NCBI GenBank assembly: GCA_903847905.1
Contig: CAINEZ010000217.1
Location: forward strand, 1 to 42,491
Length of the DNA stretch: 42,491 nucleotides
Source of the DNA: an uncultured Bacteroidota bacterium
GTDB taxonomy: Bacteria; Bacteroidota; Bacteroidia; Bacteroidales; CG2-30-32-10
Reading direction: 5' to 3'
Part shown: in pieces, positions 27,993-32,926 of the stretch
How positions within the stretch are numbered: the stretch's first letter is position 1
Layout: each line of letters opens with the position of its first letter
Position numbers and translations under genes: made by a program
The notes under the pieces: generated by a model
Seen by the model: only the letters and a program-made list of their open reading frames with translations
The model's database searches: none
Told to the model about the DNA's origin: nothing

Positions 27993-28000
27993 TAATTTTG
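27993..28000 (+). promoter_or_regulatory. -7 promoter box (TAATTTTG) for tRNA-Glu
   Basis: It fits TAnnTTTG, 37 bp before the 5' end of the tRNA-Glu gene. Confidence 0.5.
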
Positions 28001-28037
28001 CATACAATATATAAACAAGTTAAAATAAAAAAAATAC

Positions 28038-28109
28038 GTTCGGTTCCTCTAAGGGTTAGGAGTCTTGATTCTCAATCAAGTAATGCGAGTTCGAGTCTCG
28101 CACCGAATA
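28038..28109 (+). tRNA. tRNA-Glu(CTC)
   Basis: The cloverleaf is complete. Acceptor stem GTTCGGT/ACCGAAT (one G-T pair), D-stem CTCT/GGAG with an AAGGGTTA loop, anticodon stem CTTGA/TCAAG with loop TTCTCAA (anticodon CTC, 28071-28073), variable loop TAAT, T-stem GCGAG/CTCGC with loop TTCGAGT, discriminator A. CCA is not encoded. The CTC anticodon reads GAG. Confidence 0.9.
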
Positions 28110-28288
28110 CAAAAAATATTGAAAAAAATAAAGAAATTGCTTTCGGCGATCCGTAAGGTGGGGACAAAAGAAACTAATATTCTGCTTTTGCAAAATTTTT
28201 AATTATGACGAACAACTTTTCCAATTCCACAGAGTAGAAATAAAATTGGTAATAATGGATAAATGAGTGAATAATAAATTTTTTTCAT

Positions 28289-28296
28289 TAATTTTG
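28289..28296 (+). promoter_or_regulatory. -7 promoter box (TAATTTTG) facing the first tRNA-Arg half
   Basis: A perfect TAnnTTTG box ends 11 bp before the broken tRNA copy at 28308, the normal place for a tRNA promoter. No equivalent box precedes the intact tRNA at 28896, which is 588 bp further on. The array therefore appears to lie between the tRNA gene and its own promoter. Confidence 0.6.
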
Positions 28297-28307
28297 CATT
28301 ACAAATT

Positions 28308-28360
28308 GGCTCCTTAGCATAACTGAATACCTGCCTGCCGGCAGGCAGGGTGCATCTGAC
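28308..28360 (+). pseudogene. 5' half of tRNA-Arg(ACG), copy 1, broken in the anticodon loop
   Basis: It matches tRNA-Arg bases 1-33, with G7 changed to T and the palindrome 28330-28349 inserted after the D-loop AATA. The sequence leaves tRNA similarity exactly after the first anticodon-loop base (C32). It cannot form a tRNA. Confidence 0.85.
28330..28349. repeat. 20-bp perfect palindrome CCTGCCTGCCGGCAGGCAGG, copy 1
   Basis: A self-complementary 20-mer inserted in the D-loop of the broken tRNA. Related 21-bp versions lie at 31143-31163 and 31573-31593, so it is a dispersed family with GC content far above its surroundings. Confidence 0.85.
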
Positions 28361-28367
28361 AAGGAAT

Positions 28368-28616
28368 ATGTATAAAGTTTATGTAATAAAAAGTGAGATT
28401 GATAAAAGATTATATGTTGGTTTAACAGAGAATATTGAAAGAAGGTTAAAAGAACATAATAATGGAAAAACCAGATCAACAAAAGGATATATTCCTTGGG
28501 TTTTGGTCTATACAGAAGAAATTAATGATAGACCTGAAGCCCGAATCAGAGAAAAATATTTAAAATTTGGATCAGGTAAGGAATATTTAAAGAGAATAAT
28601 TGGCTCCGTAGCATAA
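28368..28616 (+). CDS. Small GIY-YIG nuclease-domain protein, copy 1
   Basis: The 82-residue protein is a lone GIY-YIG domain of the UPF0213/YhbQ type. The GIY part is YKVYVIKSE, the YIG part is LYVGLT, the conserved arginine lies in NIERRLKEHNNGKT, and the catalytic glutamate in ARIREKYLKFG. I used the ATG at 28368; an upstream in-frame GTG lies inside the tRNA fragment. The last residues GSVA and the stop TAA are encoded by the first 15 bases of the next tRNA-Arg copy. Such domains cut or nick DNA in homing endonucleases, UvrC and some transposases; the role of stand-alone bacterial copies is not established. Copy 2 differs at two residues. Confidence 0.9.
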   Translation: MYKVYVIKSEIDKRLYVGLTENIERRLKEHNNGKTRSTKGYIPWVLVYTEEINDRPEARIREKYLKFGSGKEYLKRIIGSVA

Positions 28617-28654
28617 CTGAATACCTGCCTGCCGGCAGGCAGGGTGCATCTGAC
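28602..28654 (+). pseudogene. 5' half of tRNA-Arg(ACG), copy 2, broken in the anticodon loop
   Basis: As copy 1, but with the correct G7, so apart from the palindrome it matches the intact tRNA at all 33 bases. Its first 15 bases also encode the end of the first GIY-YIG protein. Confidence 0.85.
28624..28643. repeat. 20-bp perfect palindrome CCTGCCTGCCGGCAGGCAGG, copy 2
   Basis: Identical to 28330-28349 and at the same D-loop position in the second broken tRNA. Confidence 0.85.
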
Positions 28655-28661
28655 AAGGAAT

Positions 28662-28910
28662 ATGTATAAAGTTTATGTAATAAAAAGTGAGATTAATAAA
28701 AGATTATATGTTGGTTTAACAGAGAATATTGAAAGAAGGTTAAAAGAACATAATAATGGAAAAACCAGATCAACAAAAGGATATATTCCTTGGGTTTTGG
28801 TCTGTACAGAAGAAATTAATGATAGACCTGAAGCCCGAATCAGAGAAAAATATTTAAAATTTGGATCAGGTAAGGAATATTTAAAGAGAATAATTGGCTC
28901 CGTAGCATAA
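28662..28910 (+). CDS. Small GIY-YIG nuclease-domain protein, copy 2
   Basis: This 82-residue copy is identical to the first except for Asn in place of Asp (KSEINKR) and Cys in place of Tyr (VLVCTEE). All catalytic-type residues are kept. The gene runs into the intact tRNA-Arg: its last four codons and stop are the first 15 bases (28896-28910) of the functional tRNA, so one DNA stretch serves as both coding sequence and tRNA acceptor/D-stem. The shared promoter would be the one at 28289. Confidence 0.9.
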   Translation: MYKVYVIKSEINKRLYVGLTENIERRLKEHNNGKTRSTKGYIPWVLVCTEEINDRPEARIREKYLKFGSGKEYLKRIIGSVA

Positions 28911-28972
28911 CTGAATAGTGCATCTGACTACGGATCAGAAGGTTGGGGGTTTGAATCCCTCCGGAGTCACCA
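28896..28972 (+). tRNA. tRNA-Arg(ACG), intact, CCA encoded
   Basis: The cloverleaf is complete. Acceptor GGCTCCG/CGGAGTC, D-stem GCAT/GTGC with loop AACTGAATA, anticodon stem TCTGA/TCAGA with loop CTACGGA (anticodon ACG), variable loop AGGTT, T-stem GGGGG/CCCTC with loop TTTGAAT, discriminator A, CCA. The usual G19 and C56 are A19 and U56, which would still pair. A terminator follows 8 bp later. Confidence 0.95.
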
Positions 28973-28980
28973 GAAAAATC

Positions 28981-29018
28981 AAGCCTTTTGGGATTTTTTA
29001 TCCCTAAAAGGCTTTTAC
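28981..29018 (+). terminator. Rho-independent terminator after tRNA-Arg
   Basis: The stem AAGCCTTTTGGGAT (28981-28994) pairs with ATCCCTAAAAGGCTT (29000-29014) with a one-base bulge and is followed by TTTACATTTTT. Confidence 0.85.
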
Positions 29019-31252: not shown

Positions 31253-32926
31253 ATGAAGAATTACTTTATCATTTTTATTTTTTCAATATTTCTTATATCG
31301 TCATGTAGCAGGAATGCTGCGGATGATAAAGATAAAACTGTTTTCCGTTACAATGAATCTGTCGGCATCACTTCGTTAGACCCTGCTTTTGCCAAGGATC
31401 AGGCTTGTATCTGGGCGACCAATCAAATATATAACGGGCTTGTACAACTTGATGATAACCTTGAAATTTTGCCATGTATTGCAAGATCATGGAAAATTTC
31501 GGATGATGGTTTGATCTACACTTTTTATCTCAGGGATGATGTTTTTTTTCATGATAATGAACTTTTCAAAAACTTGCCTACCGGACAGGCAGGCGGGAAA
31601 GGGCGTAAAGTAATTGCCTCCGATTTTGTTTATAGTTTTAGCAGGATCATTGATCCCAAAATAGCATCACCAGGCGCCTGGATATTTAATAATGTGAACA
31701 ATTTGTTAAATGATAATAAATTTAATTTCAAAGCATTAAATGATACTACCTTATTAATTTGTTTAAAGAACCCTTCGCCACCTTTTTTAGGGCTTTTAAG
31801 CATGCAATATTGTTCTGTGGTACCAAAAGAAGTCGTTGAACATTACGGGAAAGATTTCAGGAAACATCCTGTGGGAACAGGTCCTTTTAAATTTAAAATG
31901 TGGAAAGAAGGAGTGAAGTTGGTCCTTGTAAAAAATGAAAATTATTTTGAATTTAACGGAACTAAGCGTTTGCCATACCTTGATGCTGTCGCTGTTACAT
32001 TCAATACCGACAAACAATCTGTTTTTCTTGAATTTCTCAAAGGCAGTATCGACTTTTTAAACAGCATAGATCCTGCGTACAAAGACGAATTGCTGACTAA
32101 AAAAGGCAGCTTAAATCCAAAGTACAAAAACAAATTTAATTTATTGACACAATCATATCTTAATACCGAATATCTTGGCTTCCTCGTTGATTCACTTTCT
32201 CCCTTGCATGAAAAAAATCCTTTGCTTGATAAGGCTGTCCGTAAAGCTATAAATTATGGTTTTGACAGGAAAAAGATGATGAAATATTTAAGGAACAATA
32301 TTGGTGTTCCGGGAATTTATGGTTTTATTCCGTTAGGAATGCCATCGTTTGATTCCACAAAAATGAAAGGATATGACTACGATCCCGAACTTTCAAAAAA
32401 ACTTCTTTCTAAAGCTGGATTTCCTGGCGGTGAAGGACTTCCGGAAATTACTTTAAGTACTACTTCTACTTATCTTGATCTGTGCGAATACATACAACAG
32501 CAATTATCTGATGTCGGAATTAAAATAAAAATTGATGTAAATCCTCCGGCAACCTTACGTGAAATGATCGCAAAATCGAAGATTGCTTTTTTCAGAGGTT
32601 CGTGGATAGCTGATTATCCTGATGCCGAAAATTATTTATCGCTTTTTTACAGCAAGAACTTTTGCCCTGCAGGACCTAATTATACTCATTTCAGTAACAA
32701 AGTATTTGATGAAAATTTTGAAAAAGCGCAGAATGAAACTAATGATACTGTAAGGTTTAAGTATTACAGGGAAATGGACAGTATTGTGATGGAAGAAGCC
32801 CCTGTTGTGGTTTTATATTACGACCAGGTGATAAGGTTTTGTCAGAAAAATATCACTGGTTTCACGAGTAACCCTATGAATCTGCTGAACCTGAAAAGAG
32901 TTAAGAAAAATAATATTGGGAAATAA
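31253..32926 (+). CDS. Oligopeptide-type ABC transporter substrate-binding lipoprotein with in-frame palindrome insertion
   Basis: The 557-residue SBP_bac_5 (DppA/OppA-type) protein has a lipobox at FLISSC (Cys18). It has the family segments GITSLDPAFAKDQACIWATNQIYNGLVQLD, GTGPFKFKMW, AVRKAINYGFDRKKMMKYL and SWIADYPDAENYLSLFYS. It would bind peptides or similar solutes outside the inner membrane; no permease genes are adjacent. Residues 108-115 (LPTGQAGG) are encoded by a copy of the CCTGCC palindrome at 31573-31593. They look like an extra piece between the conserved halves of the VFFHDNELFKN...GKGRKVIASDFVYSF segment. The frame is preserved and the rest of the protein is intact. Confidence 0.92.
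   Translation: MKNYFIIFIFSIFLISSCSRNAADDKDKTVFRYNESVGITSLDPAFAKDQACIWATNQIYNGLVQLDDNLEILPCIARSWKISDDGLIYTFYLRDDVFFHDNELFKNLPTGQAGGKGRKVIASDFVYSFSRIIDPKIASPGAWIFNNVNNLLNDNKFNFKALNDTTLLICLKNPSPPFLGLLSMQYCSVVPKEVVEHYGKDFRKHPVGTGPFKFKMWKEGVKLVLVKNENYFEFNGTKRLPYLDAVAVTFNTDKQSVFLEFLKGSIDFLNSIDPAYKDELLTKKGSLNPKYKNKFNLLTQSYLNTEYLGFLVDSLSPLHEKNPLLDKAVRKAINYGFDRKKMMKYLRNNIGVPGIYGFIPLGMPSFDSTKMKGYDYDPELSKKLLSKAGFPGGEGLPEITLSTTSTYLDLCEYIQQQLSDVGIKIKIDVNPPATLREMIAKSKIAFFRGSWIADYPDAENYLSLFYSKNFCPAGPNYTHFSNKVFDENFEKAQNETNDTVRFKYYREMDSIVMEEAPVVVLYYDQVIRFCQKNITGFTSNPMNLLNLKRVKKNNIGK
31573..31593. repeat. 21-bp CCTGCC-type palindrome inserted in frame in the oligopeptide-binding gene
   Basis: CTTGCCTACCGGACAGGCAG plus G codes LPTGQAG in the reading frame of the host gene. 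The reverse complement is close to the intergenic copy at 31143. It recalls Rickettsia palindromic elements, which also insert in frame. Confidence 0.75.

Follow-up and report, generated by a model that had tools for sequence, protein, structure and literature searches.

Tandem GIY-YIG nuclease units that restore a tRNA-Arg gene in an uncultured Bacteroidota bacterium, apparently part of a large family of tRNA-gene invaders

The window analysed in our study is a stretch of 42,491 nucleotides (contig CAINEZ010000217.1, assembly GCA_903847905.1) from an uncultured Bacteroidota bacterium. It contains three tRNA-Arg starts exactly 294 nt apart, only the last of which is a complete tRNA (Rfam tRNA, 59.3 bits), and the first two are each followed by an intact ORF with a GIY-YIG match (Pfam PF01541, E ~5e-16), the final four codons and stop of which (GSVA and stop) lie inside the next tRNA start (Table 1). 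This spacing, the two complete genes running into the next tRNA copy, the single complete tRNA and the tRNA promoter box ahead of the first copy had all been described in a first-pass annotation of the sequence, and were borne out here. The two 294-nt units (28304–28597 and 28598–28891) differ at three positions (28314, 28401 and 28510) and are therefore two slightly diverged copies; at 28314 an acceptor base of the tRNA, G7, is mutated to T in copy 1. The 82-aa nuclease is the only coding content of a unit. The first two tRNA copies had been annotated as ending at base 33, and tRNA bases 1–33 are indeed matched by both, but these are not plain 5′ halves, as each contains a perfect 20-nt palindrome, CCTGCCTGCCGGCAGGCAGG, between bases 22 and 23, at the junction of the D-loop and D-stem.

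Table 1. Features of the tRNA-Arg locus in the window
Feature	Position	Strand	Evidence or remark
Bacteroidota-type −7 promoter motif TAATTTTG, native tRNA-Arg promoter, before remnant 1	28289–28296	+	Only TAnnTTTG in 28000–29000
tRNA-Arg remnant 1: bases 1–22 (28308–28329, base 7 mutated), palindrome, bases 23–33 (28350–28360)	28308–28360	+	
Palindrome CCTGCCTGCCGGCAGGCAGG, 3′ edge of the D-loop of remnant 1	28330–28349	.	
GIY-YIG nuclease gene copy 1, 82 aa	28368–28616	+	PF01541, E 5.4e-16; AF2 pLDDT 93
tRNA-Arg remnant 2: bases 1–22, palindrome, bases 23–33	28602–28654	+	
Palindrome in remnant 2, same as in remnant 1	28624–28643	.	
GIY-YIG nuclease gene copy 2, 82 aa	28662–28910	+	98 % identical to copy 1
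Complete tRNA-Arg(ACG), only copy found in the genome	28896–28972	+	ARAGORN, Rfam, DNA search

A DNA search of the source genome, which is 99.3 % complete and has 35 tRNAs, found no second tRNA-Arg(ACG), and the gene appears to be single-copy. No second promoter motif was found between 28000 and 29000, and this only tRNA-Arg(ACG) is therefore probably cut from the mRNA of the nuclease. A group I intron or other RNA element was rejected, as the unit is too short and nothing except the tRNA matched Rfam at the gathering score; intron families gave no Rfam match in a scan of the locus at E up to 1, in agreement with the earlier view that the locus has no room for an intron. An element of the tRNA-integrase type was also rejected, there being no integrase or recombinase gene in the unit, as were a phage vector (a single weak, partial match in viral contigs) and a role in anti-phage defence (only weak and partial PADLOC matches).

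The window protein consists of a single GIY-YIG domain and meets the criteria of the GIY-YIG superfamily for fold and catalytic residues. Residues Y5, Y16, G18, R26, H30, E62 and K66 are invariant in 42 diverse homologues, and the nuclease genes show a signature of purifying selection (dN/dS ~0.1–0.27 in unsaturated pairs). The fold predicted by AF2 matches UPF0213 protein BH0048, SLX1 and the catalytic domain of I-TevI, and the separate DNA-binding domain of I-TevI-type enzymes is absent. A role as a DNA nuclease is likely from knowledge of the family, with no activity data. We know of no tRNA-linked organisation for UPF0213 proteins. It is this family (PDB 1zg2 and 1ywl) that provides the nearest solved fold and sequence to the window protein.

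An assembly artefact has to be considered for a metagenome genome fragmented into 704 contigs. We find this scarcely credible, since the two window units differ at three positions and tandem arrays of several units occur in genomes assembled as single contigs (G315, G373, G211 and G267), including G315, where five full units follow one another with a spacing of exactly 450 bp. Insertion is instead indicated by relatives with an uninterrupted tRNA-Arg, a comparison that the first-pass annotation had called for. Three genomes of the window's own family (G001–G003) carry intact tRNA-Arg(ACG) directly behind its promoter, and the region upstream of remnant 1 aligns with that promoter region. The window locus shares neighbour genes with G001 and G002, but these are in the opposite orientation relative to the tRNA, and the flanks at the window's own locus are therefore rearranged. 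A genome of another genus, G132, carries a three-unit array of 1,066 bp in tRNA-Arg(ACG), and its flanks are contiguous around one intact tRNA in congeners (G476, G480, G487, G434 and G477, among others), which we take as decisive empty-site evidence for insertion. Location outside introns and presence or absence between relatives at a fixed site meet one criterion for a homing endonuclease gene. The same congeners, which lack the nuclease at a contiguous empty site, already contradict ordinary local duplication, in which a resident nuclease gene beside a tRNA would have been duplicated with part of that tRNA and without mobility. Recombination between tRNA copies easily makes tandem direct repeats, but local duplication is also opposed by the independent occurrence of units with the same logic at many isotypes and in many phyla and by the target-tracking across genomes described below, and we consider it highly improbable.

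The extent of the arrangement was surveyed using the window GIY-YIG protein as the only query, so that loci were picked by protein similarity alone. Matches were found in 140 of 395 Bacteroidota genomes, and 121 loci were studied, comprising 56 on contigs of GTDB species and 65 from Bacteroidota genomes. A tRNA gene was observed within 250 bp on the same strand at 109 loci (52/56 and 57/65) and at none on the opposite strand; by our own arithmetic, chance proximity would be well under 1 % (~35 tRNA genes in a 4.6-Mb genome). A remnant of the adjoining tRNA was also present at 101 of the 121 loci (46 of 56 and 55 of 65), and the remnant held a clearly palindromic insert at 37 of the 56 and 35 of the 65. 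The exceptions to tRNA proximity include loci with tRNA remnants (L060, L157, L166 and L175) or inverted repeats (L090, L096, L173 and L184). Hosts include Bacteroidota, several Patescibacteria lineages, Nitrospirota, Neomarinimicrobiota and others, and the target tRNAs include Leu, Arg, Ser, Cys, Asn, Glu, Gln, Ala, Thr, Met, Phe and Tyr, with few loci behind those isotypes that were seen once or twice. The window unit belongs to a large family that invades tRNA genes across several bacterial phyla and has apparently gone undescribed.

Two layouts were observed among these loci, and the complete tRNA is present in both alike. Layout A consists of a 5′ remnant, the nuclease and the complete tRNA, whereas layout B consists of the complete tRNA, the nuclease and a 3′ remnant. 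Of 58 layout-A remnants, 56 start at the tRNA 5′ end and two reach the 3′ end; the 3′ end is reached by 23 of 28 remnants in layout B. One near-pristine locus (L070) has a complete tRNA-Leu with its terminator, a nuclease gene and a full-length second tRNA-Leu that differs from the first only in having its anticodon loop interrupted by a palindrome. At another locus (L044, G044:C51), tRNA-Arg(CCG) is preceded by a 5′ remnant and followed by a full-length copy that a palindrome interrupts, and the nuclease gene is absent; this is likely a relic of a lost unit. A unit at tRNA-Arg(CCU) (L043, G031:C67) was seen to have duplicated the tRNA promoter too, leaving the complete tRNA with a promoter of its own.

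The source genome itself has 12 GIY-YIG matches. One small GIY-YIG gene separates a complete tRNA-Leu(CAA) from a 3′ fragment of tRNA-Leu (L006), another separates tRNA-Thr(CGU) from a tRNA-Thr without its 5′ end (L007), and a third, broken by an in-frame TAA, follows tRNA-Met (L009). A further small gene (L001, contig C503) is situated within a cluster of another repeat family (TCAGTCTGAGTTTATCGAAGACTGA), a nuclease among palindromes. Two others (L002 on C322 and L005 on C400) lie between inverted repeats inside protein genes. Such GIY-YIG genes flanked by inverted repeats (for example CACCCCGTGAGATA ... TATCTCACGGGGTAAA) were also seen at L173, L184, L090 and L096, four of the six belonging to one related clade; these units are ~280 bp, resemble insertion sequences, encode only the nuclease and are found inside protein genes or beside genes. 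The protein genes that were hit are, by our own reading, HEPN-like, GxxExxY, tyrosine recombinase and four-helix-bundle genes.

Target isotype was strongly clustered among 118 nuclease proteins, with 34 label changes on the tree compared to 72 when labels were shuffled (0/200). The tree is based on 80 columns and its resolution is limited; the pairwise isotype test is independent of it. The nearest neighbour was of the same isotype in 89 of 111 cases (22.9 expected), and in all 27 within-genome contrasts the nuclease was closer to a same-isotype nuclease elsewhere than to a nuclease with another target in its own genome. A Leu clade (SH-aLRT 98) unites 31 Leu units, and three with Leu-type remnants, from Bacteroidota, Patescibacteria and Nitrospirota. 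The nuclease protein tracks its target isotype and not its host, and target specificity that is inherited with the protein is a second homing-endonuclease criterion that is met. The isotype-specific clades hold irrespective of anticodon and this, with the likely co-transcription of nuclease and tRNA in layout A, would also be expected if the nuclease acted on the tRNA as RNA, either as a processing enzyme or as an isotype-specific toxin kept beside the gene for its substrate. However, a patchy presence (140/395 Bacteroidota genomes) speaks against a needed processing role, DNA nucleases are among the closest solved folds, and action on RNA leaves the remnants, the palindromes and the logic of the layouts unexplained, making this an improbable explanation.

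The palindromes in the remnants are usually situated at D-, anticodon- or T-loops. Among 88 strongly palindromic inserts, 39 were in loops, 35 at loop/stem edges and 14 in stems, compared to 31, 15 and 41, respectively, expected from uniform placement over the same remnants. A strict palindrome was present in 35 of 45 remnants with at least 97 % identity to the intact tRNA, while imperfect palindromes are present in most of the remaining ten; since these remnants have hardly decayed, the palindrome arrives early. Within the Leu clade it may lie in the D-, anticodon- or T-loop, and the idea that the palindrome marks one fixed cut site per nuclease or nuclease clade was therefore not supported. 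The palindrome sequence goes with the host lineage more than with the nuclease clade; CCTGCCTGCCGGCAGGCAGG and near variants were found in many hosts, CCCGCCCG...CGGGCGGG in some Flavobacteriaceae and TCCGCC...GGCGGA in some Patescibacteria. In the source genome, the exact 20-mer CCTGCCTGCCGGCAGGCAGG occurs only in the two window remnants. A palindrome unique to this locus was nevertheless rejected, as the relaxed, dispersed form CTGYCT(N)AGRCAG has 91 sites there versus 1 for a reversed control, and related dispersed palindromes number 1–43 in each of 20 other host genomes from several phyla. Elsewhere in the window, an ORF (31253–32926) that we take to be a substrate-binding protein gene carries an insert resembling these palindromes, CTTGCCTACCGGACAGGCAGGCGGG, which begins or lies near codon 107 and is read in frame as LPTGQAGG; palindromes therefore enter coding sequence too.

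The main rival to a homing-like cassette, although the two are not exclusive, is that the nuclease mobilises the dispersed palindromes in a REP/RAYT-like pairing. Palindromes would enter hairpin loops, with tRNA genes as the best hairpin-rich sites and duplicate tRNAs making a hit copy tolerable. The placement of 74 of 88 palindromic inserts in loops or at loop edges (~46 expected), their early insertion (35/45 by the strict measure), the dispersed relatives in the source genome and 20 others, and the nucleases between inverted repeats in protein genes or beside genes (L002, L005, L090, L096, L173 and L184) are all consistent with this. However, the association of palindrome sequence with host lineage more than with nuclease clade speaks against it, the tracking of tRNA isotype is not required of a palindrome mobiliser and there is no evidence that the dispersed palindromes need the nuclease. 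We therefore regard palindrome mobilisation as possible but rather unlikely. Membership of the REP/RAYT system itself was rejected, there being no Y1/HUH transposase and only a GIY-YIG protein.

Taken together, we consider it probable that each unit is a compact GIY-YIG cassette of a homing-like kind, which is specific for one tRNA isotype and restores the tRNA gene that it targets. The window would contain two tandem copies of such a mobile cassette, each composed of a single-domain GIY-YIG gene and a duplicated part of the target tRNA, with the short palindrome inside the displaced tRNA remnant, and each nuclease lineage would be specialised for one tRNA isotype (Arg in this case). The cassette would interrupt the tRNA gene while its junction rebuilds a complete tRNA, the 5′ part being rebuilt downstream in layout A, as in the window, and the 3′ part upstream in layout B. 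The host would keep an essential tRNA and the cassette, driven in layout A by the tRNA's own promoter, would be a nearly harmless passenger. We infer that the nuclease cuts the tRNA gene and that recombinational repair from a cassette-bearing copy inserts the cassette, as in homing; tandem arrays may then arise if the rebuilt tRNA is cut a second time or if tRNA copies, the remnant included, recombine with one another. Resistance of the donor allele was also looked at: the remnant is broken by the palindrome, while the restored tRNA keeps its native sequence and should recreate the cut site. Self-cutting must therefore be limited, and strict homing would need weak or context-dependent cutting. 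The varying palindrome position within one clade, the lack of a separate DNA-binding domain and the rearranged flanks at the window locus likewise weigh against this reading.

The first-pass annotation had proposed a nuclease module that inserted in a tRNA gene, carried the 5′ part so that the tRNA was restored downstream, and then duplicated. This is supported by the empty sites, by the same arrangement at many tRNAs when other Bacteroidota were searched, and by the arrays in single-contig genomes; none of the outcomes named as refuting it (mere local duplication, no similar arrangement at other tRNAs, or an assembly artefact, the last judged from the divergence of the two units and from arrays in other genomes) was met. 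It was incomplete in missing the palindrome at the D-loop edge, the common mirror layout with 3′ restoration and the large isotype-specific family. Insertion in the tRNA gene is supported, but the anticodon loop as the exact point is uncertain because the palindrome marks a D-loop position and the remnant ends vary through decay. We only tentatively suggest, rating it plausible but somewhat short of an even chance, that the family is a new class of element, perhaps among the smallest that are autonomous, in which a GIY-YIG nuclease of ~80 residues, paired with a palindrome, would recognise tRNA genes by isotype, insert palindromes at tRNA loops and always rebuild the tRNA, as a natural cleave-and-rescue drive with an inverted-repeat sister form in protein genes.

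The family would connect nucleases of the homing type with essential tRNA genes and with dispersed palindromes, three subjects that were not linked before in the literature searched. It would explain the source of many stray tRNA fragments in these genomes, provide a case from nature in which an element disrupts an essential gene and brings the repair with it, and give orphan palindromic repeats a possible mobilising enzyme. Furthermore, its very small nucleases, which fall into many clades specific for their targets, would be suited to the study of target finding by an 80-residue enzyme.

A description of such tRNA/GIY-YIG units was not found in the open-licence literature, subscription papers and preprints being outside the scope of the search. 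The nearest analogues are the mobile ORFs (mORFs) of fungal mitochondria, known from Allomyces atp6, Rhizopus atp9 and Glomus atp6, atp9, cox2 and nad3, and the phage enzyme SegB (PMC3630166; PMC13096335; PMC2988022). Like the window unit, mORFs place an intron-less endonuclease gene (GIY-YIG in Glomus atp9) in an essential gene with a duplicate of the displaced end, so that the gene is made whole again and its original end persists as a remnant (PMC3630166); the mechanism inferred here for tRNA genes is thus the one by which mORFs work on protein genes. The window unit meets the mORF criterion of such a duplicate rebuilding a complete gene, but not that of location in a fungal mitochondrial protein gene, as it lies in bacterial tRNA genes; mORFs affect 3′ ends in the described cases and have no tRNA targets, palindromes or isotype-specific clades (PMC3630166). 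SegB is a free-standing GIY-YIG homing endonuclease beside tRNA genes in phage tRNA clusters, and is described as cutting within tRNA genes and driving tandem amplification of tRNA and its own gene (PMC13096335; PMC2988022), which makes it a precedent for such steps by a GIY-YIG enzyme. It differs in being phage-borne and located between tRNA genes, with no isotype preference reported and no remnants or palindromes known to us. T4 mobA with the gene 60 bypass insert similarly pairs a free-standing homing endonuclease with a small non-coding insert, which has a possible role in protection from cleavage, but the enzyme is of the HNH type and the insert lies in a protein gene and is bypassed by the ribosome (PMC5009743). 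Integrases and genomic islands that target tRNA genes also leave behind one complete and one partial copy of the tRNA, although they use an integrase and are kilobases in size, compared to 294 bp and a nuclease alone for the window unit (PMC9897764). REP/RAYT systems share dispersed palindromes tied to a single-gene nuclease, but RAYTs are tyrosine (Y1/HUH) transposases, whereas the window family has a GIY-YIG protein and a link to tRNA (PMC3116915, PMC2817692). The parts are therefore of known kinds, and it is their combination, isotype-specific, restoring tRNA in two directions, palindrome-bearing, chromosomal and spread across phyla, that appears new.
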